A stretch of DNA of 64,000 nucleotides, taken from NCBI GenBank assembly GCA_025559845.1, contig CP048471.1, positions 1 through 64,000 on the forward strand, read 5' to 3'. Shown one piece after another: positions 37,917-60,926 of this stretch. Numbering within the stretch: position 1 is the first letter of the stretch; each line of letters begins with the position of its first letter. The notes below the pieces were generated by a model. That model did no database searches, was not told the DNA's origin, and saw only the letters and a list, made by a program, of their open reading frames with translations. The position numbers and the translations under genes are program-made. This stretch comes from Agrobacterium tumefaciens (GTDB lineage Bacteria > Pseudomonadota > Alphaproteobacteria > Rhizobiales > Rhizobiaceae).

Positions 37917-37941
37917 GGTTCACGCTTCATCCAGAGCTCAA
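37917..37941 (+). repeat. Array boundary motif, copy 1
   Basis: GGTTC ACGCTT CA TCCAGAGCTCAA, 38 bp after the truncated parE stop. It matches the copy at 44590 including flanks. Confidence 0.75.
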
Positions 37942-38030
37942 AAGAGCCATCCGCAGATAATGGCGGCGCAAATTTTACCTAGAAAGCGTCATTCAATTGC
38001 ATTGCTATCCGGTTGAATCTGGAGATAGCC

Positions 38031-38339
38031 ATGGCCGCCAACGCACTCGTCCAAACACGTATTGATGCCGAGGTTCGGGATCGTGCTTCTGCCGTGCTTG
38101 AAAGCATGGGCCTCACGGTATCTGATGCGGTTCGTATCCTGCTCACCCGGACTGCTAATGAGGGGGCTTTGCCCCTTGAACTTCTTTCGAGCAGTGAAGC
38201 GCATGACGCCTGGTTTCGGACCAAGGTGCTCGAAGCATTGAACGATACTCGGCTCGATTTATCAGACGAGGAAGTTGAGGCTCATTTTTCCGAACGTCGA
38301 GCAGCAGCACGTCTTAAAGCTGGTGTGCCCAAATCGTGA
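38031..38339 (+). CDS. RelB/DinJ-family antitoxin
   Basis: A 102-residue protein starting MAANALVQTRIDAEVRDRAS, then LESMGLTVSDAVRILLTRTANEGALPLEL, the ribbon-helix-helix pattern of DinJ/RelB antitoxins. The C-terminal half (RLDLSDEEVEAHFSERRAAAR) is the expected toxin-binding region. ATG at 38031 follows GGAGATAG. The stop overlaps the GTG start of the RelE gene (GTGA). The antitoxin neutralises the RelE/YafQ-like toxin and autorepresses the operon in known systems. The partner toxin here is frameshifted. Confidence 0.9.
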   Translation: MAANALVQTRIDAEVRDRASAVLESMGLTVSDAVRILLTRTANEGALPLELLSSSEAHDAWFRTKVLEALNDTRLDLSDEEVEAHFSERRAAARLKAGVPKS

Positions 38340-38628
38340 AACTTATTTGGTCTGCATTTGCGTTATCGGATCGCGACGCCATCTTTACGTACATTGAGGC
38401 AGATCATCCCGCCGCCGCCGTTCTGATCGATGAGCGGATTGTCGCTGCTACCCGTCGTTTACTCGATTTTCCTGCCAGTGGGCGCGTGGGCAGAATTGCT
38501 GGCACACGCGAACTCGTCATCAACGGTACGCCCTACTCGCTGCATATACCATTACTGAAACGACAGTTCGAATTCTTCGTGTGCTTCATGGCTCGCAAGA
38601 ATGGCCAGAACATATGCCGCCAAAATAA
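38336..38628 (+). pseudogene. RelE/ParE-family toxin, frameshifted
   Basis: The GTG start overlaps the antitoxin stop. The product begins MKLIWSAFALSDRDAIFTYI and continues through GRVGRIAGTRELVINGTPYSL, typical of this toxin family. After that the frame changes: the expected C-terminus (TETTVRILRVLHGSQEWPEH, then MPPK and stop at 38626) is in the next frame. A single missing base near 38543 explains this. Without correction the protein ends in 35 unrelated residues, so the toxin is probably inactive. Confidence 0.8.
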
Positions 38629-38652
38629 TCGACCCACTCTCTCGGAGCCGGT

Positions 38653-38677
38653 GGTTCGATTCCTATCAAGAGCTTAA
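38653..38677 (+). repeat. Array boundary motif, copy 2
   Basis: GGTTC GATTCC TA TCAAGAGCTTAA, a full match to the consensus, 25 bp after the relE stop. Confidence 0.85.
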
Positions 38678-38738
38678 TGGGAACGATGATTCAGGCGTAC
38701 AGATTTCACGTATATTGATTATCGCAGTATCTCGCTAT

Positions 38739-38756
38739 ATGACTATATATGGTCAT
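38739..38756. promoter_or_regulatory. Imperfect palindrome upstream of phd, candidate operator
   Basis: ATGAC and GTCAT arms surround TATATATG (ATGACTATATATGGTCAT), ending 15 bp upstream of the antitoxin ATG. Autoregulation by the antitoxin-toxin complex is usual for this family. Confidence 0.55.
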
Positions 38757-38771
38757 TGTTCTGGAGGTCAG

Positions 38772-39023
38772 ATGTCAAGCATTAGTGTTGCCGAGGCAAA
38801 AGCCAGATTTGCTGGCCTCGTGGATGAAGCGGCGAAGGGTGAGTTTGTTACGATCACGAGGCACGGAAAACCCGCTGCTGTGATCGTGAGTGTGGAAGCT
38901 GCAGAGGTCGCTAAGAAAGCACTGAAGAGGCCTCGTGCAAACTTTGGTGATTTCTTGTTGACCTTTCCGGGTGGAGCAGATTTCGAGCGTGATCATTCCG
39001 AAATGCGCGATGTAGATCTGTGA
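38772..39023 (+). CDS. Phd/YefM-family antitoxin
   Basis: An 83-residue antitoxin. MSSISVAEAKARFAGLVDEA, followed by GEFVTITRHGKPAAVIVS, is the Phd DNA-binding domain, and the C-terminal segment (ANFGDFLLTFPGGADFERDH) is the toxin-wrapping region of VapC partners. GGAGGT lies four bases before the ATG. The stop overlaps the VapC GTG start (GTGA). A palindrome just upstream probably serves autoregulation. Confidence 0.92.
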   Translation: MSSISVAEAKARFAGLVDEAAKGEFVTITRHGKPAAVIVSVEAAEVAKKALKRPRANFGDFLLTFPGGADFERDHSEMRDVDL

Positions 39024-39478
39024 ACGGTTATCTGCTCAATACGAATATCATCAGCAAATTTGCGCCTGATAAGGTCTCTCCCTCAGCTGAAGTTCGCGAG
39101 TGGTTTCACCAACAAGGCATGGCGGACGCGCTGTTCTTGTCCGCAATGACAGTTGCTGAGATTGAAAGGGGTCTAAGATCGCTTCATCGCCGTGGTGGTT
39201 TTGAAAGAGCGAAACGCCTTTCTCTCTGGCTGGATTTTATTACTAGCACCTTTGATGATCGTATCTTGCCGATGGATACTGTTGTCGCTCGCATCGCTGG
39301 ATCTATGGAGAATGAAGCCAAAGGAAGAGGCCAGAACCCGGGCCTTGGCGATATCATCATTGCTGCGACAGCTCGAGCATACGATCTGACGGTAATTAGC
39401 GAGAATATGCGGCACTTCGAACCTTTGAACGTCGCTGTAGATTTCCCGGTTTTCTTCAAGACGGATCAATCGAGCTAG
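39020..39478 (+). CDS. VapC-family PIN-domain toxin with changed first catalytic residue
   Basis: A 152-residue PIN protein with GTG start. Family blocks are LFLSAMTVAEIERGLRSLHRRG (second acidic residue), FDDRILPMDTVVARIAGSM, and GLGDIIIAATARAYDLTVISENMRHFEPL (third and fourth acidic region). The N-terminal active-site motif reads LLNTNIIS instead of LLDTNIIS, so the first metal-binding Asp is Asn. If the family's metal-dependent RNase mechanism applies, activity should be reduced or absent. The boundary motif follows the stop codon at 39505. Confidence 0.9.
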   Translation: MNGYLLNTNIISKFAPDKVSPSAEVREWFHQQGMADALFLSAMTVAEIERGLRSLHRRGGFERAKRLSLWLDFITSTFDDRILPMDTVVARIAGSMENEAKGRGQNPGLGDIIIAATARAYDLTVISENMRHFEPLNVAVDFPVFFKTDQSS

Positions 39479-39504
39479 AGAAATCTCTGAAACTGCGGTT
39501 CGGA

Positions 39505-39529
39505 GGTTCGATCCAGCTTAAGAGAGTTT
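39505..39529 (+). repeat. Array boundary motif, weak copy 3
   Basis: GGTTC GATCCA GC TTAAGAGAG: the left half matches well, the right half partly. It lies 27 bp after vapC, the position expected for a copy. Confidence 0.5.
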
Positions 39530-39538
39530 CTAAGGAAT

Positions 39539-39691
39539 ATGCGTCACCATGAGACCGTTCACGTAGACCAGCCTGTATTCCTTGGAAAGTGGCAATTTGG
39601 ATGGGAGTGGGTCGGGGTTGACGCTAAGCCAGTGGAAATGCTCGCCGACCGGCTATATCTACAGGGAGAGCCAGGTATGAGGCGGAAATGA
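39539..39691 (+). CDS. Hypothetical 50-residue protein upstream of MNT gene
   Basis: The frame starts at ATG with TAAGGAAT in front and encodes MRHHETVHVDQPVFLGKWQF, then GWEWVGVDAKPVEMLADRLY and a short tail. Its stop codon overlaps the MNT start (ATGA), which argues for co-translation. No family recognised; it could be the tail of a lost upstream gene. Confidence 0.4.
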   Translation: MRHHETVHVDQPVFLGKWQFGWEWVGVDAKPVEMLADRLYLQGEPGMRRK

Positions 39692-40046
39692 GTGTCGTTG
39701 CTGCAAGTTTTGGTGGTCGTATTGCATCTCCCGGCGGGTATCCGGAGTTGGAGACGCTGCTTGCCCGTATCAGAGCGGCATATAACCCGATCGACGTGAT
39801 CCTATATGGCAGCCGCGCCCGCGGAGAGGCGACAAGCCAGAGCGACTGGGATTTGAAAGTGATCGTTTCCGACGAAGCTCCAGAGCGCTTTTTTCGCCAA
39901 TGTCTGGTTGGCGACTTCAGGAAGGTTCTGGCGTTTATGCCGATGTCTCCTGTATCAGGCTTTCGGATTTCCAGGCTGATCTAAGCGTGGCAAACTCGGC
40001 ATCTAACCATATTGTGGCAGACGGCATCGTGATTGATGTGCGCTGA
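39688..40046 (+). pseudogene. MNT-type nucleotidyltransferase (antitoxin), frameshifted
   Basis: ELETLLARIRAAYNPIDVIL, then YGSRARGEATSQSDWDLKVI, is the minimal nucleotidyltransferase active site (GSRARGE...SDWD), as in MNT antitoxins that AMPylate HEPN toxins. After about residue 75 the expected sequence (SGVYADVSCIRLSDFQADLS, then VANSASNHIVADGIVIDVR and stop at 40044) lies in the next frame, indicating a one-base change around 39920. Uncorrected, the protein ends at 39984. The corrected stop overlaps the HEPN start, as in intact modules. Confidence 0.75.
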
Positions 40047-40512
40047 TCTCCACATCGCAAATTCTCTTCGGCTAGCGCATGAAGATTTGGTGGCTGCGCA
40101 GGCCCTATCGGCAATCGACAACCGAAACGACGTCTTCCATCTACAGCAGGCTGCTGAGGAAAATTCTTCTCGCGCTCCTCAATTCGAAAACATCAAGGCA
40201 GAGCGTAGAGATTCGCATCGCCTTGACGTCCTGCGAGACCTCTTGCCGGAAGACAATACTTTCAAGGTGAAATTTTCACCAATCACGTTCCTTGCCGTCT
40301 ATGCAACGACCTACCGTTACCGAAAGGATGCTGGTCGTTTGCCTCAGAGAGGCGAGAAGGATGAAATCGAAGTTGCCGCGAAGATACTGCAGGTAATTTT
40401 GGCGGACGCAGCCGCTCACTTCGGCGTAGCGTTGACCGATTCTGATCGAATTCCAGCAAAACGAATTACACCACATTTCATATCCTCAAGCCGGCGTTCC
40501 GATGTCGGATAG
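40036..40512 (+). CDS. HEPN-domain protein, partner of MNT nucleotidyltransferase
   Basis: ADLHIANSLRLAHEDLVAAQ, RDSHRLDVLRDLLPEDN and FLAVYATTYRYRKDAGRLPQ match the HEPN family paired with MNT. HEPN toxins are RNases, and the MNT partner inactivates them by adenylylation. The segment EENSSRAPQF replaces the usual hydrophobic helix; the next frame reads KILLALLNS there, pointing to two compensating frameshifts. The last 15-20 residues run into sequence overlapping the recombinase remnant on the other strand, so the natural C-terminus may be near 40465. Confidence 0.65.
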   Translation: MCADLHIANSLRLAHEDLVAAQALSAIDNRNDVFHLQQAAEENSSRAPQFENIKAERRDSHRLDVLRDLLPEDNTFKVKFSPITFLAVYATTYRYRKDAGRLPQRGEKDEIEVAAKILQVILADAAAHFGVALTDSDRIPAKRITPHFISSSRRSDVG

Positions 40513-41725
40513 TGTCCGCGCGGGCAGACGCGTAGCTGGCGAAGGTTCTTTTGTCTGAGCCCAAGGTGCAGGCCAAGCCGAAGCAACAGGAATGCTCTGA
40601 CGGCTTCGGCGGCAGGTCGTGGGTATCTGTTCTCGTCCGGCATACGTTTCACGATCTCGTCCGTGATTTTGCGATATTCCGCTAATGGACTGTCCGCTTC
40701 AAGTACATACATGATCGGTTCAAATGGATCGCGATGCACACGCATCACTCGCTGGATCTCCTTGGAACGGTTCGCGGCATGTCGGTGAAACGCATCACAG
40801 GCACCATGCCAGTCGCGAGCCGCGAAGTCGATTTCTTCCTGCTCAATCAAGCCCACGATGGGCCTGACGTTCTTAAGCAGTTCCGGGTGTTGCCGGATCC
40901 AGCCGACATCCGCGCGAGATAGGGCTTGGGCGACCATCAGCATGTCTTCTTCCCATTTGGTGTAAAAGCCACGTCGTTGTTCCCGCCACTGCAGATACCA
41001 GTCCCAGACGCCAGGGAAGATGAGGAGGCCAAAGCTTAACTGGCTAAGCGGTACGCCACAGTCCTTCACGACGCTGCTTGGGAAAGCTGCTAGTGCGCGC
41101 CCTGGCCCCAGGATAGCAGCGTCTTGTTGTCAAAGGTCTCATTCAGATGAACGACGGCGCGATAGAGCTGCCAGTAGGTGTCGCCGAACCGCCGCATATG
41201 ATAGATCAATGCGTCCTGAAAGCTCACCGGATCTTCAGTCGCTTCAAATAGTGTGTCTGGGAACGGGCTGATCGGTTTTGGCGCAGGGCCGCGCTGTGTC
41301 GATGCGGACCGGGCAAAGGTGCCGTCGGTCGCCGCGCGTTGCGGCTTTCCGGTCGAGGATGCGGAAGCCGCTTTCTTGGCGGGAACGATTTTGGTCGGGC
41401 GGGCCTTTGACTTTGGTGGCCGTCGCTCTTCGGCTGCCGGTGGTGCGCCGAGCCATCGGATGATGGCATCCAGAGCAGGCCGGAGCTGCTTTTTCAGTCC
41501 TACCGTCAACTCGGCTTCGATCCCACACGCCTGACCGATAGTCGTCCAGTCGATATGGCCGTTCAGAAGCGGTGGCGATTTTCGGTAGACAATCAAACTG
41601 GCCAGATAAGGCCGTATATTTTCCAACACTCGCCTGGATGCGATCGGAGCGATACGAAGCTCGCAGAATTCCGAAATTTTTCGCTGAAAATGACGTGATG
41701 AAAGGTCGTGTTTGGTCATGCTCAT
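40463..41725 (-). pseudogene. Tyrosine recombinase remnant, N-terminal and middle parts
   Basis: Two frames on the minus strand belong to one large recombinase-like protein. The first (41725-41090) starts MSMTKHDLSSRHFQRKISEF and ends at TLLSWGQGAH. The second (from 41069) contains LSFGLLIFPGVWDWYLQWRE, ADSPLAEYRKITDEIVKRMP and the Arg-I region of the catalytic domain, AFLLLRLGLHLGLRQKNL. The segment joining them is missing or shortened, and the C-terminal part with the His and Tyr residues is absent beyond about 40463. A matching C-terminal piece lies at 56415-56699. The remnant sits inside the module array and could derive from the enzyme that moved its modules, but that is speculative. Confidence 0.72.
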
Positions 41726-41878
41726 TCCGTTTCTCTCGACACCGATGCCGAGGGCGAGCGGAAATAGGGGGCGCCCGTTAACAAAATATGTTTAGGGCAA
41801 GACGTTTAACGTCGATCGCTGCGTCTTGAATGGAGAGCCGCAGCCTGTGGTGCTGAGCGATAGACGGACTTGCAATAG

Positions 41879-41928
41879 CTCATATATGGCAATAATTATG
41901 AGTTATAGAGATGGATCCTATAACTCAT
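41879..41928. promoter_or_regulatory. Operator-like repeats overlapping the fic start codon
   Basis: ATGAGTTATAG (41898-41908) and CTATAACTCAT (41918-41928) are perfect 11-bp inverted arms around nine bases, and the second arm runs into the fic ATG. A further half-site CTCATA at 41879-41884 pairs with TATGAG at 41897. It is a likely binding site for the winged-helix domain of the Fic protein itself, and the transcript would fold over the start codon. Confidence 0.7.
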
Positions 41929-43033
41929 GAAATGGAACTGGCAAAACACGGATTGGCCAAACTTCAGGTACGACACCGCAAGGATGGTACCGTTGGAGCA
42001 GAGATTCTTGCAGTCCGCCGGCGAGGTTATCGGTGCTATCCGGCATTTCAACGAGGACGACAGCAACCAACTTCGTATTGAGTTGCTGAGCGACGAAGCG
42101 GTCAAGACCTCAGAGATTGAGGGGGAATATCTCGACCGCGTGAGCGTCCAGTCGTCACTCCGCCGACAGTTCGGGCTAAACACTGATGACAGACAGATCC
42201 GCCCCCAGGAGCGGGGGATCGCCGAGATGATGGCGGATGTCTATCGAAGTTGGCATAGGCCACTGCGTCATGAGGGCCTGTTGCACTGGCATTCAATGCT
42301 GATGGCCGGAAACCGATATATTGAAACGGTTGGTGCTTACCGCACACATGAAGACGCCATGCAGATCGTGTCAGGTCGACTGGATAAGCCGACAATCCAC
42401 TTTGAGGCTCCCCCGTCTCGCCAGGTTACCGATGAGATGGAGACTTTCATCGCATGGTTCAATCAATCCGGGCCAAGTGGTCAAGCGTCGCTTCAAGCTT
42501 TAACGCGCGCAGCCGTAGGCCATCTTTATTTTGAAAGCATACATCCATTTGAGGATGGCAACGGCCGAATTGGGCGCGCGCTGGCTGAGAAATCCCTGTC
42601 GCAAAACATAGGGCAGCCAAGTCTCATTTCACTCGCTTTCACAATCGAGAAGAGCCGGAAGGCCTACTACTCCGAGCTTGAGCGGCACCAGCGCACGCTT
42701 GATATCACCGACTGGATCATTTTCTTTTCAGAAACGATCCTGGATGCTCAACGGGCGACGCTTGAGCGCATAGATTTCTTTATTCAGAAAGCAAAGTTCT
42801 ATGATCGCTTTCGAGGCCAGTTGAACAAGCGGCAGGAAAAGGTAGTTGCGCGTATCTTCAAGGAAGGCACGGCAGGCTTCAAGGGGGGGCTAAGTGCCGA
42901 AAACTACATTTCAATCACAGATACATCTCGCGCTACAGCAACACGCGACCTTCAGCAGCTTGTGGAGATTGGTGCACTGACGCGTACGGGCGAACGTCGG
43001 CATACCCGGTACTCTCTGTCACTACAGAAATAA
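41927..43033 (+). CDS. fic: Fic-family AMP transferase with C-terminal winged helix
   Basis: The 368-residue protein has the catalytic Fic motif HPFEDGNGRIGR at about residues 205-216. The N-terminal inhibitory motif is TSEIEGE near residue 65, of the class II type in which the glutamate blocks ATP binding. The last 60 residues (LSAENYISITDTSRATATRD, then LQQLVEIGALTRTGERRHTRYSL) form a winged-helix DNA-binding domain. Fic enzymes transfer AMP from ATP to target proteins. The built-in inhibitory helix removes the need for a separate antitoxin. Strong inverted repeats over the start codon suggest autoregulation. Confidence 0.93.
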   Translation: MKWNWQNTDWPNFRYDTARMVPLEQRFLQSAGEVIGAIRHFNEDDSNQLRIELLSDEAVKTSEIEGEYLDRVSVQSSLRRQFGLNTDDRQIRPQERGIAEMMADVYRSWHRPLRHEGLLHWHSMLMAGNRYIETVGAYRTHEDAMQIVSGRLDKPTIHFEAPPSRQVTDEMETFIAWFNQSGPSGQASLQALTRAAVGHLYFESIHPFEDGNGRIGRALAEKSLSQNIGQPSLISLAFTIEKSRKAYYSELERHQRTLDITDWIIFFSETILDAQRATLERIDFFIQKAKFYDRFRGQLNKRQEKVVARIFKEGTAGFKGGLSAENYISITDTSRATATRDLQQLVEIGALTRTGERRHTRYSLSLQK

Positions 43034-43066
43034 ATTGCTGCGATGCAAATGAACTAGGTGAAGGGC

Positions 43067-43091
43067 TGTTCGATTCCGCTCAACAGCAAGA
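43067..43091 (+). repeat. Array boundary motif, copy 4
   Basis: TGTTC GATTCC GC TCAACAGCAAGA, 33 bp after the fic stop codon; one mismatch in the TCAAGAGC core. Confidence 0.65.
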
Positions 43092-43177
43092 CGATTGCTC
43101 TCCGCTGATCTGCAAGATGACGCTAAAAGCAACCATTCCCTTGGTGTTTCGCTTCAAGCCACCGCAGCGTGATTTGA

Positions 43178-43465
43178 TCATTCGCCACAAAGGAATACGC
43201 CATAGTCCGAAGCGCCATGCAGGAAGTGGATAATGACCACTTTGGCGGCTTCAACGCGATAGAAGATCAGGTAGTTGCCGTGAACGTGTCGACGGATTCT
43301 ATGATGTTCATAGCGAGGCACCAGGGCGAAACCGTTTGGGTTTTGGATAAGATCTTCACACCGGCTCCGCAGCTCTCTGATAAATGAGAGAGCGCGCCGT
43401 GGATTGTGCTCGGCAATGTAATCGGCGATCTGCTCAAGATCGCCCTCGGCCTCTGGTAAAATCAA
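43178..43465 (-). CDS. ParE/RelE-family toxin
   Basis: A 95-residue protein: ILPEAEGDLEQIADYIAEHN, PRRALSFIRELRSRCEDLIQ, YEHHRIRRHVHGNYLIFYRV and VVIIHFLHGASDY are ParE hallmarks. ParE poisons DNA gyrase in characterised systems. The only usable start in frame is TTG three bases after the antitoxin stop, which suggests low translation or a slightly shortened N-terminus. It is the only toxin-antitoxin pair of the array encoded on the minus strand. Confidence 0.87.
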   Translation of the reverse strand: MILPEAEGDLEQIADYIAEHNPRRALSFIRELRSRCEDLIQNPNGFALVPRYEHHRIRRHVHGNYLIFYRVEAAKVVIIHFLHGASDYGVFLCGE

Positions 43466-43468
43466 GAA

Positions 43469-43735
43469 TCATGCGGAATTTTCGGCTTTGTCAGCTATCG
43501 CCTGATATTTTGCTTCGAGACGGTTGAACACATCATTGGCCGACTTAGTCCGACCGGAGTCCGCATCAGAGATGCCGCGCGTGATTGAAGCATCCAGAGC
43601 GGCCAGTCGCGTTTCACGATCCTGAACCAGTCCCACGCCCTCGCGCAGGACTTCGCTTTTGGAGCCGTAGCGACCTTTATCCACGAGCTGCTGGATGTAG
43701 CTTTCAAGCTGCTTGCCCAAATCGGCGCTGATCAC
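43469..43735 (-). CDS. ParD-family antitoxin
   Basis: An 88-residue antitoxin: LGKQLESYIQQLVDKGRYGS, KSEVLREGVGLVQDRETRLA is the ribbon-helix-helix core, followed by an extended C-terminus that binds ParE. AAGGAG precedes the ATG. About 40-55 bp upstream, TTGATAA occurs twice ten bp apart (43774-43790 on the opposite strand reading), a plausible operator. Confidence 0.9.
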   Translation of the reverse strand: MISADLGKQLESYIQQLVDKGRYGSKSEVLREGVGLVQDRETRLAALDASITRGISDADSGRTKSANDVFNRLEAKYQAIADKAENSA

Positions 43736-43908
43736 GCGTATCTCCTTCGTGGATCACGGAAAGAATATAGTCGTTTATCAACTATTATCAAACGGCGAGT
43801 GAGCGCTCTTGCTGTTCAGCGCTATCCTTCTCGAATAGGCGGCCCGTAGAGACTTCGGCAACCATTTGGTCGGTGCGAACTAGTTGAAATTGCAATTAGC
43901 AGGTCACC

Positions 43909-43933
43909 TTTTCATGTCTGTTCAAGAGCTTAA
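43909..43933 (+). repeat. Array boundary motif, copy 5
   Basis: TTTTC ATGTCT GT TCAAGAGCTTAA between the two parDE modules: perfect right half, weaker left half. It stands at the 5' side of the minus-strand pair, so orientation follows the array and not the genes. Confidence 0.8.
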
Positions 43934-43951
43934 TCACGACGCATTGTAGAT

Positions 43952-43991
43952 TTGACAAACTTTGCCATCGGGATGTATTTTTACTTACATC
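43952..43991 (+). promoter_or_regulatory. Promoter and operator of second parDE operon
   Basis: TTGACA at 43952-43957 and TGTATT at 43974-43979 form a sigma-70-like promoter with a 16-bp spacer. GATGTA and TACATC (43972-43991) are perfect inverted arms overlapping the -10 element, as expected for autorepression by ParD. Confidence 0.65.
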
Positions 43992-44003
43992 TAGGAGGCT
44001 CAA

Positions 44004-44258
44004 ATGGCGACGATGAATGTATCCCTACCAGACCCCATGAAAGACTGGGTTGAAGCGCAAGCCAAGACCGGCAGATACTCCAATGCGAGCGATTACGTTA
44101 GAGATTTGATACGCAGAGACCAGGCTCGTACGGACAAGATTGCCGAGATGCAGCGCTTTGTGGACGACGGTATTGAAAGCGGCGTTGGAAACCAATCGTC
44201 GGATGAGCTGTTTGCTGCAGCCAAAGCGCGAGCAAAGATCAGCAGCGATCGCGACTGA
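44004..44258 (+). CDS. ParD-family antitoxin
   Basis: An 84-residue protein: MATMNVSLPDPMKDWVEAQA, then GRYSNASDYVRDLIRRDQAR, the canonical ParD ribbon-helix-helix. The C-terminal half contains QRFVDDGIESGVGNQSSDELF, the usual ParE-binding segment. TAGGAGG lies seven bases upstream. The stop overlaps the toxin start (TGATG). Its operator and promoter are recognisable immediately upstream. Confidence 0.95.
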   Translation: MATMNVSLPDPMKDWVEAQAKTGRYSNASDYVRDLIRRDQARTDKIAEMQRFVDDGIESGVGNQSSDELFAAAKARAKISSDRD

Positions 44259-44551
44259 TGCCGTTTAACCTCTCGGTACAAGCGGAAGAGGATATCGTTT
44301 CCATCGCGGAAGAAGGCATCCGCGTTTTCGGAGCACTTGTTGCCAAACGATATCACGATGAGCTCTTTGCCTTGTTCGAACTCATTGCCGCCAACCCACG
44401 AATGGCGCGCGAGCGCAATGAGATTTCTCCGCCTGTCAGGATACATCCTTTCAAAGCTCACCTCATCGTTTACCGCACCATCGAGAACGGAAGCATACTT
44501 GTAATCCGTATCCGGCATGGCCATGAGGATTGGGGAGGAGATCCCTTCTAA
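44258..44551 (+). CDS. ParE-family toxin
   Basis: A 97-residue toxin: FNLSVQAEEDIVSIAEEGIR, YHDELFALFELIAANPRMAR, VRIHPFKAHLIVYRTIENGS, ILVIRIRHGHEDWGGDPF. These are the ParE strands and terminal motif. It overlaps parD by one base. The 3' half and downstream sequence are duplicated at 37726-37941. Confidence 0.95.
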   Translation: MPFNLSVQAEEDIVSIAEEGIRVFGALVAKRYHDELFALFELIAANPRMARERNEISPPVRIHPFKAHLIVYRTIENGSILVIRIRHGHEDWGGDPF

Positions 44552-44589
44552 ATTAGTTCCTTCGTCGGCCTCAGTACGTGTCGGTCGTC

Positions 44590-44614: not shown

Positions 44615-44672
44615 AAGGACGGCAGCCACGCGATGCCAGAAAGGGATTGCGCGATGAAAATGAAGGCGCTAT

Positions 44673-54447: not shown

Positions 54448-54476
54448 TGCCGGGCCATGCCGTGTGAGGACCGATC

Positions 54477-55310
54477 TTGGAACAGTGGATCTTGCTGCTT
54501 GTCGCGGCACTCGGCGCCGGCGCGCTGAGCGGTGTGATCGGAACCGGTGCGAGCCTGCTGCTTCTGCCATTGCTAGTGCCGATGTTCGGTGCCGTCGAGG
54601 CGATCCCGATCATGGCCGTGGCCGGCTTCATGGCCAACCTGTCGCGGGCGCTTGCGTGGTGGGGTTCGATCGCCTGGAAGGCGGTGATGGCCTATGCCCT
54701 GCCGGGCGTTCCGGCCGCAGCACTCGGCGCCTATACGCTGGTTCACATGCCGCGCGGATGGCCGGAAATGCTGCTTGGCCTCTTCATCATGGCTCTGGTG
54801 CCGCTGCGCCAGCTGGTGATGAAGGCCGTCGTCTCGATCAATCTGGTGCAGATGGCCGTCGTGGGTGCGGTGATCGGCTTTCTGACGGGACTGTTTCTCT
54901 CAACCGGACCGCTCAGCGTGCCGGCCTTTCTGGCGCTCGGCCTCGTGCGCAGTGCCTTCATCGACCAGGGCGGTGAGCCGTCCGGGCGAAATATGTTGGG
55001 CGACATGGCGGCGACCGGTCTTGGCGTGCGTTCCCGCCTGCTCAATGCCGCAAGGATTGCCGCCTCCGTGCTTTTGACCTGCGCCTGCGCATCCGTGGTG
55101 GGCACGCTGGGTTTTGTCGGGCTTGTCGCACCCCATCTGGCCCCGCTTTTCTTCGGCTCGGCGCAGATGCCGTTTCTGTTTGGCAGTGCAGCTTTAGGCA
55201 GCCTTCTCGTGCTTCTGGCAGACACAGTCGGCCGAACGATCTTCGCCCCGGTCCAGATCCCCGCCGGCATCCTGATGGCCGTGCTCGGACTGCCGTTTTT
55301 CTGTTCCTGA
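54477..55310 (+). CDS. Chimeric protein: TauE/SafE permease N-terminus joined to FecCD permease C-terminus
   Basis: A 277-residue frame. Up to about residue 163 it is a TauE/SafE-type permease: GALSGVIGTGASLLLLPLLV, FMANLSRALAWWGSIAWKAV and GFLTGLFLSTGPLSVPAFLA. After FIDQGG it becomes the C-terminal third of a FecCD siderophore permease: GLGVRSRLLNAARIAASVLL, VGTLGFVGLVAPHLAPLFFG and LLADTVGRTIFAPVQIPAGI. The two families are unrelated, so an in-frame deletion or recombination joined two genes. The TauE half lacks its last helices and the FecCD half its first two thirds, so function is doubtful. An ABC substrate-binding gene follows at once. Confidence 0.88.
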   Translation: MEQWILLLVAALGAGALSGVIGTGASLLLLPLLVPMFGAVEAIPIMAVAGFMANLSRALAWWGSIAWKAVMAYALPGVPAAALGAYTLVHMPRGWPEMLLGLFIMALVPLRQLVMKAVVSINLVQMAVVGAVIGFLTGLFLSTGPLSVPAFLALGLVRSAFIDQGGEPSGRNMLGDMAATGLGVRSRLLNAARIAASVLLTCACASVVGTLGFVGLVAPHLAPLFFGSAQMPFLFGSAALGSLLVLLADTVGRTIFAPVQIPAGILMAVLGLPFFCS

Positions 55311-55332
55311 TGTGGCAGAGAAAGGACACGCT

Positions 55333-56311
55333 TTGAAGAGACCCGGTTTTGGAAACCTCGTACTGGCAGCCTGCCTGATGCTCGGCATGCCGTTTTTCAG
55401 CCCGGCAGCCTTGGCCCGGGAAATCATCGATGACGCCGGACGACGCGTCGAGATTGTTGACCGGCCGCAACGAGTCGTCTCGCTCGACGATGCGGACCTC
55501 ACCGTGCCGTTGCTCGAACTCGGCGTCCTGCCAATCGCAAGCCAGGGCCGGCGGGGACGCGGCGGCCATCACTTTCTCCGCTCCGGCATGACGCTGACAG
55601 GCCAGGACTTCGACAATACCCGCTTGATCTTCCTCGGCATGCAGCCGGTCGATGTCGAGGCCGTTGCGGCGTTGAAGCCTGATCTGATCCTGGTCTTCAA
55701 GGGCCGACCGACGCCGCCGGAACAATTGCAGGCAATCGCGCCGACCGTGGTCATCGACGATATCGCGCGTGGACCTGACGCTATCTACGATTTCCTCGCC
55801 GAGCTGACCGGGCGGCAGGCGGCACTCGATCTTCTCAAACGCCGCTACGGCACGCAGATCGCCCAGCCGCGGCTGATTGCCGGCGACAAGCCCCCGGTGA
55901 TCTCCGTCATTTCCGCGACCGGCGATCGCAAGCTCAGCATCGAGCGGAGCTATGGCAGTATCGGCTTCGTTGCACGGGATGCGGGTTTTGACACTCCCCC
56001 CGCTGACAAAGACGATTGCGGAAAATTCAGGCGCGCTCTTCAGCCCTGAAGCGCTGCCCGAATTCGATGCGGATATCGTCTTCGACACCTATCGCAACGA
56101 CCGTAACGAGACCGCCAAGGATGCGAAGAAGAGGTTGGAAAACATGCTGCCCGGCTATTGCCGCTTCCTCAGGGCCTGCCGCGAAGGGCGCTATTATTTT
56201 CTGCCGAGGGACGAGGCCAAGTCGACGACCTATGCAGCGCGCATGATGGCGATCGCCTTGCTGACGGGAGTTGTTTCGTCTTTGCAGTTGGACGACGAGA
56301 CAAGCCGTTGA
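55333..56311 (+). pseudogene. Siderophore/cobalamin ABC substrate-binding protein, frameshifted
   Basis: A signal peptide (FGNLVLAACLMLGMPFFSPA, ALA) precedes a periplasmic-binding fold: REIIDDAGRRVEIVDRPQRV, LIFLGMQPVDVEAVAALKPD and VVIDDIARGPDAIYDFLAEL. At a run of six C (55996-56001) the frame shifts; the remainder (LTKTIAENSGALFSPEALPE, DIVFDTYRND, GRYYFLPRDEAKSTTYAARM) is in the next frame up to 56311. One base added or lost in the run restores continuity. With the chimeric permease upstream it is the remnant of an iron-chelate ABC operon lacking its ATPase. Confidence 0.8.
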
Positions 56312-56328
56312 GATATTTACGGGTTGAC

Positions 56329-56353
56329 GGTTCATATCCCATCAAGAGCAAAG
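56329..56353 (+). repeat. Array boundary motif, copy 9, right edge of catabolic block
   Basis: GGTTC ATATCC CA TCAAGAGCAAAG, 18 bp after the substrate-binding gene; only the last four bases differ from consensus. Confidence 0.82.
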
Positions 56354-56362
56354 CGAAAGGGT

Positions 56363-56398
56363 CGGCTCAGACGGAGACTGTTTTCACTATCTGAGCCG
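56363..56398. terminator. Hairpin next to boundary motif copy 9
   Basis: CGGCTCAGA and TCTGAGCCG are perfect nine-bp arms with an 18-base loop, between the boundary motif and the end of the recombinase fragment on the minus strand. It could terminate that gene. Confidence 0.5.
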
Positions 56399-56414
56399 AG
56401 CATCTCATTCGCTC

Positions 56415-56699
56415 TTACGCAGCTTCCCAAACCTGATTGAGAATCTTGGCAGCCAGTGCGGCTTTGTCTTGCGGCAGGAAGCGACCGTAGTGCTGTTGCA
56501 CTACATCGGGCGTATCCTGAATTGCGTAGCTCGCCTGCTCGTAGGATCCGGTCTGCTTCAGAATATGCGTCGCGAGAATGTCCCGTAGGTTATGGGGTCC
56601 ATGTGGCAACAGGCCCTTGATCGCACCTCGCCTGGTATAAGGGTTATAAATTCCATAGCGTTGAATGACGGTCCTCCAAGCCTCGTAGAATGTGGTGGA
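56415..56699 (-). pseudogene. Tyrosine recombinase C-terminal fragment
   Basis: About 95 codons encode the end of a large tyrosine recombinase: TTFYEAWRTVIQRYGIYNPY, LPHGPHNLRDILATHILKQT (His and Arg of the active site), YAIQDTPDVVQQHYGRFLPQ (Tyr nucleophile) and AAKILNQVWEAA at the natural stop. No N-terminal part is attached; upstream on the strand is a short unrelated hydrophobic frame (56787-56644, TGGAVAVAGGTILALIVIK). It lies on the same strand as the recombinase N-terminal remnant at 40463-41725, which stops before this region, but about 15 kb away and in the wrong order for one gene. Confidence 0.85.
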
Positions 56700-56900
56700 G
56701 GCCTGCTGCCATCTTGATCACGATCAGCGCCAGAATGGTGCCGCCGGCCACGGCGACGGCTCCTCCCGTGATGTGAAGAAGCCGCATCAAGAGAGCGACG
56801 GGTTTTTGCTAGAGCTGAGGTAGGTTGTGGAATAGGCGTCTACGAAAAAGCACATCCCTCCAACCAACCGCCGATCAAGGTTCGACGGTGGTCACATACC

Positions 56901-56910
56901 CACATATGTG
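56901..56910. promoter_or_regulatory. CACATATGTG palindrome upstream of antitoxin
   Basis: A perfect ten-bp palindrome, flanked by further CACAT/ATGTG half-sites (GTCACATAC before, TAATGTGG after), 36 bp before the antitoxin ATG. It is a likely autoregulatory site. Confidence 0.55.
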
Positions 56911-56945
56911 TTAATGTGGCTTTTCTCAATTCAGGAGTACGCTAG

Positions 56946-57197
56946 ATGAGCAGGTTGACGATCGACATAACGGACCAACAACATCAAAGCCTGAAGGCGT
57001 TGGCCGCTTTGCAAGGGAAGACAATCAAGCAGTATGCAATTGAACGCCTCTTTCCCGGAGATACAGACGCAGAACGAGCCTGGCAGGAGTTGAAGAAGTT
57101 TATAAACACACGCGTCGATGAGGGGCTAGCAGGAAGACTGTCGACCAAAACCGTAGGTGAGATTCTCGATGAAGAGATTGCCGAGGGTCGTGCTTGA
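56946..57197 (+). CDS. Ribbon-helix-helix antitoxin of ParE-type module
   Basis: An 83-residue protein: MSRLTIDITDQQHQSLKALA, then ALQGKTIKQYAIERLF is an Arc-type ribbon-helix-helix, and LSTKTVGEILDEEIAEGRA the C-terminal toxin-binding part. AGGAG precedes the ATG by eight bases. The stop overlaps the toxin's TTG start (TTGA). Confidence 0.9.
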   Translation: MSRLTIDITDQQHQSLKALAALQGKTIKQYAIERLFPGDTDAERAWQELKKFINTRVDEGLAGRLSTKTVGEILDEEIAEGRA

Positions 57198-57505
57198 CTA
57201 CCTACATTCTTACTGCAGAGGCGGAATCAGATCTACGTTCGGTAATCCGCTACACCCGTGCGCAATGGGGTACTCCGCAGGTACGCCGCTACGTTTCGGA
57301 TTTGGAGCGAGGTATCGCACTACTCGCCGAGGGCAAAGGTTCTTTCAAGGATATGAGTGGGCTTTATCCGGCCTTACGAATGGCGCGATGCCAACACCAC
57401 TACGTCTTTTGTCTGCCGCGAGAGGCAACACCGGCTCTCATCGTGGCAATTCTCCATGAGCGAATGGATATTATGAACCGTTTGGTTGATCGTCTGAACG
57501 AGTGA
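57194..57505 (+). CDS. ParE-family toxin
   Basis: A 103-residue protein: YILTAEAESDLRSVIRYTRA, QVRRYVSDLERGIALLAEGK, RMARCQHHYVFCLPREATPA, LIVAILHERMDIMNRL. The HHYVFC and ILHERMD segments are typical of this ParE subgroup. Translation starts at TTG overlapping the antitoxin stop. Confidence 0.92.
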   Translation: MTTYILTAEAESDLRSVIRYTRAQWGTPQVRRYVSDLERGIALLAEGKGSFKDMSGLYPALRMARCQHHYVFCLPREATPALIVAILHERMDIMNRLVDRLNE

Positions 57506-57583
57506 TGTTTGAATGGAGGCGAGATTGCAGGAGCGCAAGAACCGACAAATCGATATCATAAGGTAGCCAAAACGATGGGCACC

Positions 57584-57608
57584 AGTTCTGATCCCTTCAA
57601 GAGCTTGC
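57584..57608 (+). repeat. Array boundary motif, copy 10
   Basis: AGTTC TGATCC CT TCAAGAGCTTGC, 78 bp after parE. Downstream, GGCTCTTG can pair with CAAGAGCT-type sequence of the motif to form a hairpin. Confidence 0.85.
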
Positions 57609-57691
57609 TTGGAGGCTCTTGTTCCTTCCCCACAGTACGACTTGAAGAGTGATATCATTTTGTTTATATTGATAGCGCGGCGAGACGATAG
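57597..57691 (+). repeat. 95-bp direct repeat A (orphan fitAB promoter region)
   Basis: Starting at TCAAGAGCTT, this segment matches 60099-60193 with two mismatches. At the second location it leads into fitA; here the similarity stops just before the fitA start and no antitoxin follows. The remaining 57692-57869 has only a weak 49-codon frame. Confidence 0.9.
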
Positions 57692-57869
57692 GCGCAGCCA
57701 TTACAGGAAGATGAATTCAACCAATGTGAATTGGGGCAGGATAAGGCGCTGTAAAGTAGGCGAGTGTCTTCTTGACCGGCACAATAGCGAATTCCGCCAC
57801 AACAAAGAATCCGCCCGTGTCCGGCAATCGTGTTTTCAATCGTTTAGCGAACTATCCTAACGGGTCGTA

Positions 57870-57894
57870 GGTACATATCCCCTCAAGAGGAGAG
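57870..57894 (+). repeat. Array boundary motif, weak copy 11
   Basis: GGTAC ATATCC CC TCAAGAGGAGAG, positioned between the orphan promoter repeat and the AbiE-like operon. Confidence 0.55.
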
Positions 57895-57926
57895 CGGGAA
57901 TGGCGAAATGCGCTTGTATAACACGT

Positions 57927-58002
57927 ATTTTCACTGCGCAGTGAAAATTGGCGTGACATCGAATATTAGATGATTTATTGAATTTTCACTCTGCAGTGAA
58001 AA
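57927..58002. promoter_or_regulatory. Two palindromic operators of the AbiE-like operon
   Basis: The first site (57927-57948) has perfect arms ATTTTCACT/AGTGAAAAT around GCGC. The second (57982-58002) has TTTTCACT/AGTGAAAA around CTGC. Their centres are 55 bp apart and the second ends 10 bp before the ATG. Characterised AbiEi antitoxins bind paired inverted repeats to autorepress. Confidence 0.8.
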
Positions 58003-58012
58003 AGGTAAAACA

Positions 58013-59107
58013 ATGGAGTTAAACGAGGGGGACCGTGCGACAAAAGCGATCAATGCGCTCGTTGAAACGCTTGAAGGGCTGCCGCATGTCACGGTTTCCC
58101 ATGTTGAAGCCGAGCCCGGTTTCGGCCTTCACCTATACCTAGACGCTGCAGTGGAGGTCGATGTAGCCGGCAAAGGCATCGTCTTGATCGTCGAGTGCAA
58201 GTCCGTCGTATATCCTCGTGATGTCCGCGAGGCGATGTGGCGCCTCCTCGCTGCCAAGAAAGACGCCGAAGCAAAGCGCGTTGAGACTGTCGTGCCCGTT
58301 CTCGCAGCAAGCTCCATATCGGTTGGTGCTCGCCAGGTGCTTCGAGGGGAGGGGGTTGGATACTTCGATGATGGCGGAAGCCTCTTTGTGCCAGCACCAG
58401 GCGCCTACCTCGACATCGAGCGCCCCGTCCCGAAGTCTGGGGAACGAACGATTGGATCCCTGTTTACAGGGAAGCGCTCCCAGATCTTGCATGCCCTGGT
58501 TCTGGATCACGGAGACTGGTTCGGCGTCAGCGAGCTGGCAGAGCGGGCGAAGGTATCGTTCGGAACCGCTTCAGAAACACTTAGCGCACTGGAGCGCTTG
58601 GAATGGGTGTCTGCTCGCGGCCATGGCCCAAATAAAGAACGGCGCCTGTCGGACACCACCTCATTACTCGACAGCTGGGCTCGCCATGTGGAAGAGGGGC
58701 CGCGGTACAAACGCCGGCGCTTCTACGTTCCTGGTAAAGGTGCCGACACTATTGCAAACAAGCTCGAAGCTGAATGCGAGGCTCTTGGCGCCGAGTATGT
58801 GCTTACCCAAGACAGGGCTGCACAAGAATATTCGCCTTACCTTTCATCTATCAATCGCATAGCTTGCCGTATGGCGCCTGGTGAAAAGACAGACATCGTT
58901 CTGGAGCATCTTGATGTCCGAGCTGTGACGGAAGGTGCAAATCTCGACGTGATCGAGACGCCGTCCCGAACTGAGTTTCTTTTCAAAGAGAAGCGGGCAG
59001 GACTTTGGCTTGCGAGCCCCCTGCAGGTCTATCTGGACCTCTTGCGAGGCGAGGGGCGATCAAGGGATATGGCCGAACACCTTAGAAAAGAAGTTTTAGG
59101 AGTCTGA
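58013..59107 (+). CDS. AbiEi-like antitoxin/regulator of type IV module
   Basis: A 364-residue protein. An N-terminal alpha/beta domain (VEVDVAGKGIVLIVECKSVV with a nuclease-like ECKS motif) precedes a winged helix at about residues 160-210 (HALVLDHGDWFGVSELAERA, VSFGTASETLSALERLEWVS). A C-terminal domain typical of AbiEi-like proteins follows (YVLTQDRAAQEYSPYLSSIN, GLWLASPLQVYLDLL). The paired operators upstream and the partner nucleotidyltransferase support the assignment. The N-terminal ECK segment is not part of short AbiEi proteins, so a different subgroup is possible. Confidence 0.75.
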   Translation: MELNEGDRATKAINALVETLEGLPHVTVSHVEAEPGFGLHLYLDAAVEVDVAGKGIVLIVECKSVVYPRDVREAMWRLLAAKKDAEAKRVETVVPVLAASSISVGARQVLRGEGVGYFDDGGSLFVPAPGAYLDIERPVPKSGERTIGSLFTGKRSQILHALVLDHGDWFGVSELAERAKVSFGTASETLSALERLEWVSARGHGPNKERRLSDTTSLLDSWARHVEEGPRYKRRRFYVPGKGADTIANKLEAECEALGAEYVLTQDRAAQEYSPYLSSINRIACRMAPGEKTDIVLEHLDVRAVTEGANLDVIETPSRTEFLFKEKRAGLWLASPLQVYLDLLRGEGRSRDMAEHLRKEVLGV

Positions 59108-59108
59108 G

Positions 59109-59996
59109 ATGACGAAACCGTCGACCGCCGAGGGATACGGCAATCAGGTCACTGAGAACTGCGAACGGGTCCTGGTCACGCTTCTTCGAGGGTTGGGACC
59201 ATGGCGTGACTCCATCTTCCTGGTGGGTGGTTTGACGCCTCGCTATCTTATCGAGAGGAAGCCTCCCGAAATTCCGGCACACGCAGGAACGGGCGATGTC
59301 GACGTCGTCATCCAGCTTCAGATGCTCAACGAAACGGAGGCTTACCATAGCCTTGAAGACAATTTCAAAAAACTCGGATTAACGCGCGGCACAAATACGA
59401 AGGGACAGTCTGTCTCTTGGCGCTGGGAGATCAGCACGGGTGGTACGAAGGTCGCAATCGAACTCCTCGCCGATGATCCTGACAAGTCAGGCGGCAAGGT
59501 CGTTGAGTTGCCCACGGAAGGCAGCGTATCGGCCATGAACATCCCGCATTCGGCAATTGTCTTCGATCATCATAAAACGCGAAAGATCTCGGCCGAGCTT
59601 CTCGGGGACGACGGGGTTGCAACGGTCGACCTCCACTATGCTGACCTGGTGGCGTTCGTTTGCCTGAAAGCTTATGCCTTCAACCAGCGAGCAGAGCGAA
59701 AAGACGCCCATGACCTAGTCTACTGCATCGAGCATTATGATGGTAGCGTCGATGCGGCCGCAGACGAATTCGTGAAAGCGCTTGGTGGTAAACACAAGGA
59801 GGTTATCGCCGAGAGCCTGACTTTGTTGGCTCAGCACTTCGTTGATGACGAGCGGACCGAAGGCTTCACCAAGGATGGTGCTGTCGCGGTGGCGAAATTC
59901 GAATTGGGAGAAGACACCGATCGCGACACCCGTATTCTCCGGCAGCGTGAGGTTTCCGATCTCATATCGACGCTCCTGAAGAAAGTTGGCGCCTAA
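59109..59996 (+). CDS. AbiEii-like nucleotidyltransferase toxin
   Basis: The 295-residue protein has the nucleotidyltransferase core DSIFLVGGLTPRYLIERKPP with GTGDVDVVIQL (GG...DVD acidic motif), followed by VAIELLADDPDKSG and an acidic/Lys site near VAFVCLKAYAFNQRAERKDAHDL. AbiEii-type toxins transfer nucleotides to tRNA or other targets and cause growth arrest. The gene follows the AbiEi-like gene with a one-base gap. GAAGTTTTAGGAG lies upstream of the ATG. Confidence 0.85.
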   Translation: MTKPSTAEGYGNQVTENCERVLVTLLRGLGPWRDSIFLVGGLTPRYLIERKPPEIPAHAGTGDVDVVIQLQMLNETEAYHSLEDNFKKLGLTRGTNTKGQSVSWRWEISTGGTKVAIELLADDPDKSGGKVVELPTEGSVSAMNIPHSAIVFDHHKTRKISAELLGDDGVATVDLHYADLVAFVCLKAYAFNQRAERKDAHDLVYCIEHYDGSVDAAADEFVKALGGKHKEVIAESLTLLAQHFVDDERTEGFTKDGAVAVAKFELGEDTDRDTRILRQREVSDLISTLLKKVGA

Positions 59997-60085
59997 CGCC
60001 TAGCCTGGGCGCACTCCCTCAAGTTCCATAGGTCGGCGTTACGCCATCTTTTCAGAGGCTTAGTTCATTTGGTGAGCGTGCCATT

Positions 60086-60110
60086 GGTTCGAATCCGTTC
60101 AAGAGCTTGC
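60086..60110 (+). repeat. Array boundary motif, copy 12
   Basis: GGTTC GAATCC GT TCAAGAGCTTGC, 89 bp after the AbiEii-like stop; the best-formed left half of all copies. Confidence 0.9.
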
Positions 60111-60193
60111 TTGGAGGTTCTTGTTCCTTCCCCACAGTACGACTTGAAGAGTGATATCATTTTGTTTATATTGATAGCGCGGCAAGACGATAG
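60099..60193 (+). repeat. 95-bp direct repeat B (fitAB promoter region)
   Basis: Second copy of the 57597-57691 repeat, running from the boundary motif to just before the fitA ribosome site. It contains the palindrome TGATATCA and an AT-rich TTTATATTGAT segment suited to promoter function. Confidence 0.9.
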
Positions 60194-60207
60194 ATAGGAT
60201 AATGTCC

Positions 60208-60462
60208 ATGGCAGCGGTCACCATTCGAAACATCTCTGATGAAACGCATCGGGCGTTACGTGCAAGAGCCGCTCACCACGGCCGGAGCACCGAAGCCGAA
60301 ATTCGTGACATCCTTGAAGCTGCTGTTCGTCCATCTGGACGCGTGAAACTTGGATCACTGCTCGCGGCCATCGGACGTGACGCCGAATTATCAAATAGTG
60401 ACGTTGAAGCTCTGCACCAGCAGCGCGACAGGACCCCGGCAGAACCGATGACTTTTGAATGA
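60208..60462 (+). CDS. FitA-type ribbon-helix-helix antitoxin
   Basis: An 84-residue antitoxin: AAVTIRNISDETHRALRARA, HGRSTEAEIRDILEAAVRP is the FitA/VapB-type ribbon-helix-helix; the tail contains LGSLLAAIGRDAELSNSD. The second of two adjacent ATGs was chosen for its spacing to TAGGA. The stop overlaps the toxin ATG (ATGA). Confidence 0.92.
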   Translation: MAAVTIRNISDETHRALRARAAHHGRSTEAEIRDILEAAVRPSGRVKLGSLLAAIGRDAELSNSDVEALHQQRDRTPAEPMTFE

Positions 60463-60878
60463 TCTTGCTAGACACTAATGTAATATCTGAGCCTTGGAAG
60501 TCGGCTCCTGACCCTGCCGTGCTGACTTGGCTGGATGCACAGGCAATCGAGACGCTGTTCATTTCCGCAATTTCCATTGCCGAACTTCGTTTCGGGATTG
60601 CCTCAATGCCTGTGGGGAAGCGCCAGACAATTCTTCATGATCGTCTTGAAAGCGAAGTTCTTCCGCTCTTTGATGGGCGTATTCTGCCCTTTAGTGTCGG
60701 TACCTCGCACTTTTATGCAGCTTTAATGGCCGACGGCCGAAAATCTGGAAAGGCGATCGCGCAGGCTGATGGATACATCGCTGCTACGGCAGCAGAAAAC
60801 CATCTCGCGGTCGCAACGCGAGATACAAGCCCGTTCGAGGCAGCCGGATTGCGCGTTATTAATCCTTGGCTCGCCTAA
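60459..60878 (+). CDS. FitB/VapC-type PIN-domain toxin
   Basis: A 139-residue PIN protein with MILLDTNVISEPWK (first Asp), LFISAISIAELRFGIASMPV (Glu) and AIAQADGYIAATAAENHLAVATRDTSPFEA (two further acidic residues). The residue set is complete, so the toxin may be active. It ends 23 bp before the last boundary motif. Confidence 0.94.
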   Translation: MILLDTNVISEPWKSAPDPAVLTWLDAQAIETLFISAISIAELRFGIASMPVGKRQTILHDRLESEVLPLFDGRILPFSVGTSHFYAALMADGRKSGKAIAQADGYIAATAAENHLAVATRDTSPFEAAGLRVINPWLA

Positions 60879-60901
60879 AGCCGCCTGAATTGCGCGGCTC
60901 C

Positions 60902-60926
60902 GGTTCGCGTCACTTCAAGAGCTTCC
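60902..60926 (+). repeat. Array boundary motif, copy 13, right end
   Basis: GGTTC GCGTCA CT TCAAGAGCTTCC. It is the last copy seen; the following 218 bp contain no gene. Confidence 0.82.

Follow-up and report, generated by a model that had tools for sequence, protein, structure and literature searches.

A conserved right-end site marks mobile cassettes exchanged at TCAAG on Rhizobiaceae plasmids

Introduction

Integrons, built on attC sites and the integrase IntI, are the textbook cassette system. On Acinetobacter plasmids, toxin-antitoxin (TA) modules are surrounded by pdif sites, which are XerC/XerD sites composed of two inverted 11-bp arms and a 6-bp centre. Here we analysed a 64-kb stretch of Agrobacterium tumefaciens DNA (contig CP048471.1, positions 1 to 64,000; hereafter the window), which opens the 401-kb replicon C3 of a 6.3-Mb genome and carries an array of TA and other units ended by copies of one motif. 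An earlier note on the window had proposed either a cassette-type recombination system different from integrons or repeated insertion at a copied target site. In a literature search that covered few subscription papers or preprints, we found no published description of this cassette system.

The arrays share with integrons the small units, a recombination site at one end, the fixed orientation of that site and exchange at it, all of which we observed; as in integrons, the units often hold TA genes and most lack a recombinase of their own. Unlike in integrons, no platform gene or attI was seen beside the arrays, the site is unstructured, the exchange point is TCAAG rather than G/TT, the proposed recombinase, which is not IntI, would be carried by a cassette of its own, and the units are scattered over plasmids in alignment with the GC (guanine-cytosine) skew. 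The system works like an integron but is not one: the sites form no attC hairpin, and in this genome no IntI was found beside the array. Like pdif, it has short sites around TA modules on plasmids, but the consensus has no inverted arms and within a replicon arm the copies share one direction. Elements of the Tn554/Tn1549 type resemble it in that a tyrosine recombinase moves them to a short target with no need for long homology; here, in contrast, the passengers are separate, apparently non-autonomous, share one right-end site and form chains. IS200/IS605 elements, which favour the lagging-strand template, are similar in their pentanucleotide-like target and lagging-strand orientation, whereas this genome has no Y1 enzyme and the site no right-end hairpin.

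Results

The earlier note had listed 13 plus-strand copies of a 25-bp motif and had seen none elsewhere in the window. We confirmed a plus-strand motif at each listed position and found one further copy, at 45465 (23.5 bits). We scored sites with a 42-column profile, trained partly on the window sites, and used one shuffle of C3 plus C2 (the 2.4-Mb replicon of the same genome) as control; strong sites were those of at least 21.5 bits, the best single-shuffle score being 20.7. Twelve of the 13 listed positions were strong, the exception being 39505 with 20.9 bits, about the best shuffle value, and the profile scan found no stretch at the 21.5-bit level on the window's minus strand. With TCAAGAGCTTAA at up to two mismatches, the window gave 11 matches, all plus, compared with 3.3 (standard deviation 1.8) in shuffles, none of 100 reaching 11; nine of them are listed positions, and the remaining two, at 15260 and 34874, are not motif copies. 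Three window cores are mutated, to TCCAG (37917), TTAAG (39505) and TCAAC (43067).

A consensus was built from 213 de-duplicated sites, of which 204 were kept and then 178 once similar upstream flanks had been removed. The loci L142 and L145 and the viral loci L212, L213, L215 and L216, judged tRNA-like by eye without ARAGORN, were left out, as were L147 and other viral loci. The 178 non-redundant sites read GGGTCG-NN-GGTTCGAWTCC-NW-TCAAG-AGC, with little conserved beyond. The 25-bp motif is real, then, and part of a longer conserved stretch in which TTAA is weakly conserved. Folding over the 178 sites gave a mean z of 0.00 on the top strand and 0.01 on the bottom strand, no better than shuffles (downstream control, -0.31), so the site is not attC-like; the attC boxes that the earlier note could not recognise were not found here either. 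In the covariation analysis of the same sites no pair stood out and no T-stem covariation was seen.

At up to two mismatches the whole genome holds 20 copies, all on C3 or C2, and none on C1, the main chromosome. C3 carries 16 strong sites on the plus strand at 38-79 kb and 14 on the minus strand at 145-298 kb. The exact pattern was found in at least 120 stretches elsewhere, and among the 80 matches listed by name nearly all are from Rhizobiaceae. A match with at most one mismatch was present in 46 of 297 genomes of the family, and the system occurs in Agrobacterium, Rhizobium, Neorhizobium, Shinella and Sinorhizobium, on many plasmids. The expectation that copies flank units in one orientation was borne out in other loci, where all 34 neighbouring site pairs lie on the same strand.

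Comparison of flanks located the exchange point. Site pairs with a shared left flank are alike through TCAAG and diverge after it; in pairs with a shared right flank, agreement begins at TCAAG. Among the 213 de-duplicated sites, 42 pairs shared one flank and none shared both; two of the 42 resemble real tRNAs, leaving 40 non-independent pairs. A later set of 326 sites, not de-duplicated, gave 50 and 75 one-sided and 25 two-sided pairs. The VapBC cassette of C3 237.3-238.2 kb is present in nine listed plasmids of Agrobacterium, Rhizobium and Neorhizobium. In C3 and loci L237-L241 it follows six different upstream units (DUF4433/macro, DarT/macro, an ImmA-type pair, Fic, an unknown unit and the one particular to C3), all of them closed by a distinct version of the motif, and every switch falls at TCAAG. 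Past the right-end TCAAG, L237-L239 and L241 have one flank and L240 another; the match in C3 stops a few bases short of this TCAAG. In the A. fabrum plasmids pAtC58, pAt1D1478 and pAt12D13a, a 5.87-kb left flank is 98-99% identical and ends 1 bp past TCAAG, followed by a recombinase cassette in pAtC58 and a Fic cassette in the other two. The latter two are 98.5% identical through the Fic cassette and diverge 4 bp past the TCAAG of its motif. Exchange points fall within the 5-bp core TCAAG in several plasmids and strains, and the motif marks the right end of mobile cassettes. Random orientation and a lack of strain variation at the junctions had been set beforehand as refuting outcomes; orientation proved uniform, and cassette content varied among strains, in the VapBC plasmids and the three A. 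fabrum plasmids, with junctions inside the motif.

The window array is composed as follows (strand is that of the motif unless stated).

37909..37937, plus: right-end site of a truncated ParDE cassette, core TCCAG, 24.0 bits; upstream flank common to 44590
37935..38670, plus: cassette with DinJ/RelB antitoxin (38013-38339) and RelE/ParE-type toxin (38336-38677); right-end site 38653
38671..39522, plus: cassette with Phd/YefM antitoxin (open reading frame end 39023) and PIN/VapC toxin (39020-39478); weak right-end site 39505
39523..43084, plus: composite cassette with nucleotidyltransferase (39688-39984), an open reading frame without Pfam match (40033-40512), a broken recombinase and Fic (41927-43033); right-end site 43067
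40416..41725, minus (gene strand): the broken ~790-aa recombinase, open reading frame pieces 40416-41069 and 41090-41725
43085..43926, plus: cassette with ParE (43178-43465) and ParD (43469-43735), genes on minus; right-end site 43909
43927..44607, plus: cassette with ParD (44004-44258) and ParE (44258-44551); right-end site 44590
44608..45482, plus: cassette with Phd/YefM (44633-44956) and PIN/VapC (44953-45375); right-end site 45465, second copy 45505
45523..46057, plus: 535-bp unit with two open reading frames without Pfam match; right-end site 46040
46058..56346, plus: 10.3-kb interval, not a TA unit, with a LysR regulator, a tripartite tricarboxylate transporter gene and others; right-end site 56329
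56347..57601, plus: cassette with ParD (56946-57197) and ParE (57194-57505); right-end site 57584
57602..57887, plus: 286-bp remnant with the left end of the FitAB cassette (107-nt repeat 57585/60087 at 95%); right-end site 57870
57888..60103, plus: cassette with an AbiEi-like gene (58013-59107) and a downstream gene without Pfam match (59109-59996); right-end site 60086
60104..60919, plus: cassette with FitA-like (60202-60462) and FitB-like PIN (60459-60878) genes; right-end site 60902

That nearly every interval holds one defence-like unit is true of nine of the 13 intervals between the 14 sites; it fails for the stretches of 40, 286 and 535 bp and for the 10.3-kb transporter region. Fixed orientation likewise holds for the motifs, all on plus, and not for every gene, the ParDE unit at 43178-43735 being encoded on minus. 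The left end of the 44608..45482 cassette is common to the minus-strand site at C3 238174, whose cassette recurs in L237-L241. The 60104-60919 cassette occurs again at C3 254.7-255.5 kb on the minus strand, with both ends shared in another context, and one further cassette recurs at C3 77.3-78.1, 145.2-145.9 and 183.8-184.6 kb in different contexts; each copy of these recurring cassettes lies on the strand fitting its replicon arm. Just 5' of the AbiE-like genes, 57928-58002 contains two near-copies of a palindrome like TTTTCACTGCGCAGTGAAAA, perhaps an AbiEi operator.

At 111 sites the three bases 3' of TCAAG were AGC in 57, GCG in 24, ACC in seven and others in the rest. Where a recombinase cassette is preceded by a motif, it starts with GCG in nine of 17 cases, and other stretches begin with GCG too. 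To the left of cassette starts elsewhere (133 non-independent rows) lay a good motif in 118, a weaker score in eight and a poor one in seven. In one poor-score row, C3 77.3 kb, the cassette lies at a solitary TCAAG close to where a small plasmid gene ends, with no motif to its left; homologs with a different continuation support this lone-target insertion, and no uninterrupted gene copy with TCAAG was found for it. In another, W07 127.4 kb, the cassette start sits at CTCTAG. These starts suggest that the full site would be required on the cassette and not on the target. The cargo was surveyed in 138 genes near motifs elsewhere, one open reading frame per site (140 minus two repeats), a selection that favours long frames. 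Since the commonest of the 151 Pfam families detected had just four members, cargo elsewhere is diverse and extends beyond TA genes; PADLOC gave 153 models, none in more than four members.

Site orientation was compared with GC skew in five replicons taken whole (C3 and the plasmids W04, W06, W07 and W11). With a skew window of ±30 kb, a size chosen without prior fixing, 66 of 66 strong sites and 43 of 43 clusters agreed. The C3 sites change strand between 79 and 145 kb, and the cumulative skew has its maximum near 110-120 kb; the two repC matches of C3 lie at 330 and 367 kb. W06, W07 and W11 have a rising skew along most of their length and strong sites on the plus strand only; W04 shows the reverse in both respects. 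On 14 plasmids, 74 of 78 pattern matches lie on the repC strand; the pattern read backwards, as control, gave five matches. The motif-bearing DNA would accordingly be expected on the lagging-strand template. Because motif orientation follows GC skew, replication-coupled insertion is suggested, which would favour the strand that is single-stranded at the fork. As an observation on the plasmids themselves, cumulative GC skew of the repABC plasmids W07, W11, W06 and W04 runs one way over most of their length, as would be expected if replication proceeded mainly in one direction or if origin and terminus lay close together.

The array encloses pieces of a ~790-aa protein that is a candidate for the cassette enzyme. 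The family comprises about 1,000 homologs, mostly annotated as hypothetical protein, and has no Pfam or NCBIfam assignment (NCBIfam gave no match to four members). It carries the tyrosine-recombinase residues R-K-H-R-Y in order, and its placement in the superfamily follows from these residue patterns: among 76 sequences R588, K637, H735 and R738 are invariant and Y770 is conserved in at least 90%. The second His/Trp of the active site is missing in these sequences, with Q760/D761 invariant there; single catalytic positions vary across the tyrosine-recombinase superfamily. A PDB sequence search with the family profile returned two chance-level matches, neither a recombinase. The top structural rows for the model were Cre, Tre, XerA and XerH, and Tn1549 Int was among the neighbours; the fold evidence is only suggestive.

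We inspected the neighbourhoods of 32 recombinase loci, 20 in a close clade (at least 74% identity) and 12 distant (at most 67%). In 17, the recombinase gene, encoded on the strand opposite to a motif, has its end 82-149 bp beyond that motif (15 by profile, L231 and L264 by inspection); 16 of these are among the 20 close-clade loci. Sequences upstream of the motif-adjacent recombinase cassettes vary between loci, and a Fic gene lies beside the recombinase in eight of the 32. The recombinase is present in 21 of 46 motif-positive genomes vs 36 of 251 others (p 5.8e-6), and in 11 of 14 genomes with at least two motif matches vs 46 of 283 others (odds ratio 18.9, p 1.3e-6). The window pieces match residues 3-224 and 407-621 of the intact protein at 73% and 89% identity, the rest being missing. 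From its position and cassette ends, this tyrosine-recombinase-like protein, riding in its own cassette, probably moves the cassettes. The distant recombinases, L356-L370, may have other cognate sites.

Two further features of the window lie outside the array. On the minus strand, 24391-32967 holds a 2858-aa open frame; its neighbours are an RTX/cadherin-like protein (20090-22435) and one of the HlyD type (18741-20051). Also on minus, 61629-63950 encodes a GroEL, on a plasmid-like replicon, with an upstream 224-aa open reading frame whose residues 132-223 match GroES.

Discussion

We consider it likely that the cassettes are exchanged at TCAAG by a recombinase that travels in its own cassette and moves the passengers in trans. 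A cassette would begin directly 3' of TCAAG with a short left end (AGC as a rule, GCG most often in recombinase cassettes) and extend to the ~30-bp right-end site GGGTCG-NN-GGTTCGAWTCC-NW-TCAAG. A crossover inside TCAAG would join and exchange cassettes; the recombinase probably binds at the conserved right end, and little beyond TCAAG would be needed in the target. Because each right end itself ends in TCAAG, cassettes would pile up head to tail in a single orientation. The recombinase would travel in a cassette of its own, in some cases together with a Fic gene; TA and other units would be non-autonomous passengers, and insertion would favour whichever strand is single-stranded at the fork. 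Orientation, junctions inside the motif and the non-attC-like folding support the different cassette-type system of the earlier note; its other suggestion, repeated insertion at a copied target site, survives in part, in that each unit's right end supplies the TCAAG where the next one sits.

A bolder proposal is tentative, and we would lean against it at present: a second cassette system in nature that is independent of integrons, whose large recombinase, made up of N-terminal, helix-turn-helix, core-binding and catalytic parts, would join cassettes to TCAAG while the replicon replicates, using the lagging-strand template in its single-stranded state. Joining on that template would make the cassettes on a replicon point with the fork.

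Several observations weigh against exchange by the ~790-aa protein at the fork. At ±15 kb, agreement with GC skew drops to 60 of 66 sites and 39 of 43 clusters; four pattern matches oppose the repC strand (one in W05, three in W09); and among weaker scores there is one minus site in W07 (19.4 bits) and, in C2, two plus beside five minus. A tyrosine recombinase acting on double-stranded DNA alone does not explain the tie to replication. A systematic search of the 326 sites found no filled/empty triples, and only one of 24 alignment ends between W06 and W04 lies within 20 bp of a core, a second being at 23 bp. (H72, taken as an empty-site candidate, had no motif and no readable junction.) For the enzyme, Pfam PF00589 gave one match among four family members, at E 0.21 and 11.8 bits (cut-off 27.1), hhalign against seven integrases gave a probability of 1%, the best Foldseek E was 0.35, and the model stretch with HxxR and Tyr has a predicted local distance difference test score (pLDDT) of about 40-65. 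No motif follows the recombinase stop in close-clade L341, L351, L369 and L258, and one does in just one of the 12 distant loci; G057, G295 and G075 have several motif matches and no recombinase at 1e-20. The source genome holds partial copies only, and the link between enzyme and site is genomic only.

The last such point belongs to a rival enzyme. Locus L226 (C3 319135-320277) encodes a ~380-aa plasmid tyrosine recombinase near repC, and its relatives occur in all five complete motif-bearing replicons and in W09; the W06 copy is 82-90% identical to the others, compared with 60-66% for the W06 RepC, except in W04 (99%). L226 is found in 11 of 14 multi-motif genomes vs 50 of 283 (odds ratio 17) and in 20 of 46 motif-positive genomes vs 41 of 251, so co-occurrence alone, with its near-equal numbers, cannot pick the enzyme; adjacency and the shared cassette ends do pick the ~790-aa family. 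That L226 serves the cassettes is unlikely: its distance to the nearest motif is 7.2-24.7 kb in the complete replicons, all five included, and 2.8 and 4.8 kb in two further loci, and the inverted repeat ACCATCGATAAG-AGGTAC-TTATCGATGGT beside its relatives in W06, W11, W09 and W04 (in W07 the left arm is poorer) is far likelier to be its site. L226 was our first enzyme candidate and was dropped on sight of this palindrome. The relatives (W06 11425-14185, W11 15089-17600) are not far from repABC, and in W06 the gene is divergent from a DUF1612/HTH_13 gene with the palindrome between them; recombinase and palindrome may together serve to resolve plasmid dimers.

A single-strand HUH transposase of the IS200/IS605 kind, inserting units 3' of TCAAG on the lagging-strand template, would fit the short 5' target, the one-sided recognition and the replication-tied orientation. 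We regard it as distinctly unlikely, given that the right end has no hairpin (the mean z values above) and that Y1 transposase PF01797 had no match in this genome, the only one searched for this rival (control matches in five of 14 genomes). Co-orientation with GC skew would also suit a polar sequence of replication or repair, Chi-like or fork-barrier-like, at which breaks were joined by chance; exchange in the same 5 bp between otherwise unrelated flanks, the obedience of the recombinase cassette to the same ends, and a main chromosome lacking the motif at up to two mismatches make this very unlikely.

The consensus resembles the 3' half of a tRNA, positions 37-72, in which we take GGTC to be the variable loop and GGTTCGANTCC the T-arm, and some exact pattern matches outside Rhizobiaceae look like tRNA genes by eye. 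Yet we rejected relics of genomic islands integrated at tRNA 3' ends as highly improbable: no tRNA was found in the window, C1 has no match at up to two mismatches, T-stem covariation is lacking, and units of ~1 kb without an integrase at many separate loci speak against such islands. Ordinary integron cassettes with degenerate attC sites, which would account for single-unit, TA-rich cassettes in one orientation with a site ending each unit, are scarcely credible and were rejected, because the sites neither fold nor covary and show no attC boxes, the units are scattered over the replicon with no platform seen, and in a search for IntI confined to this genome none was found, integron-integrase models staying below cut-off for the seven scanned of its ten tyrosine recombinases (XerC/XerD-like or phage-like), whose relatives lie at least 2.8 kb from a motif in the loci examined.

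Exchange at TCAAG by a travelling recombinase would have several consequences. The motif offers a simple sequence signature for computational searches for cassettes, and the ~790-aa enzyme family would gain a function. The link between orientation and GC skew offers a new system for asking how recombinases use single-stranded DNA at replication forks. A separate cassette system would explain the gathering and exchange of TA, Fic and other defence units in Rhizobiaceae and, if the bolder proposal is true, the accessory defence genes of Rhizobiaceae plasmids would be shuffled cassette by cassette, without a dedicated platform.

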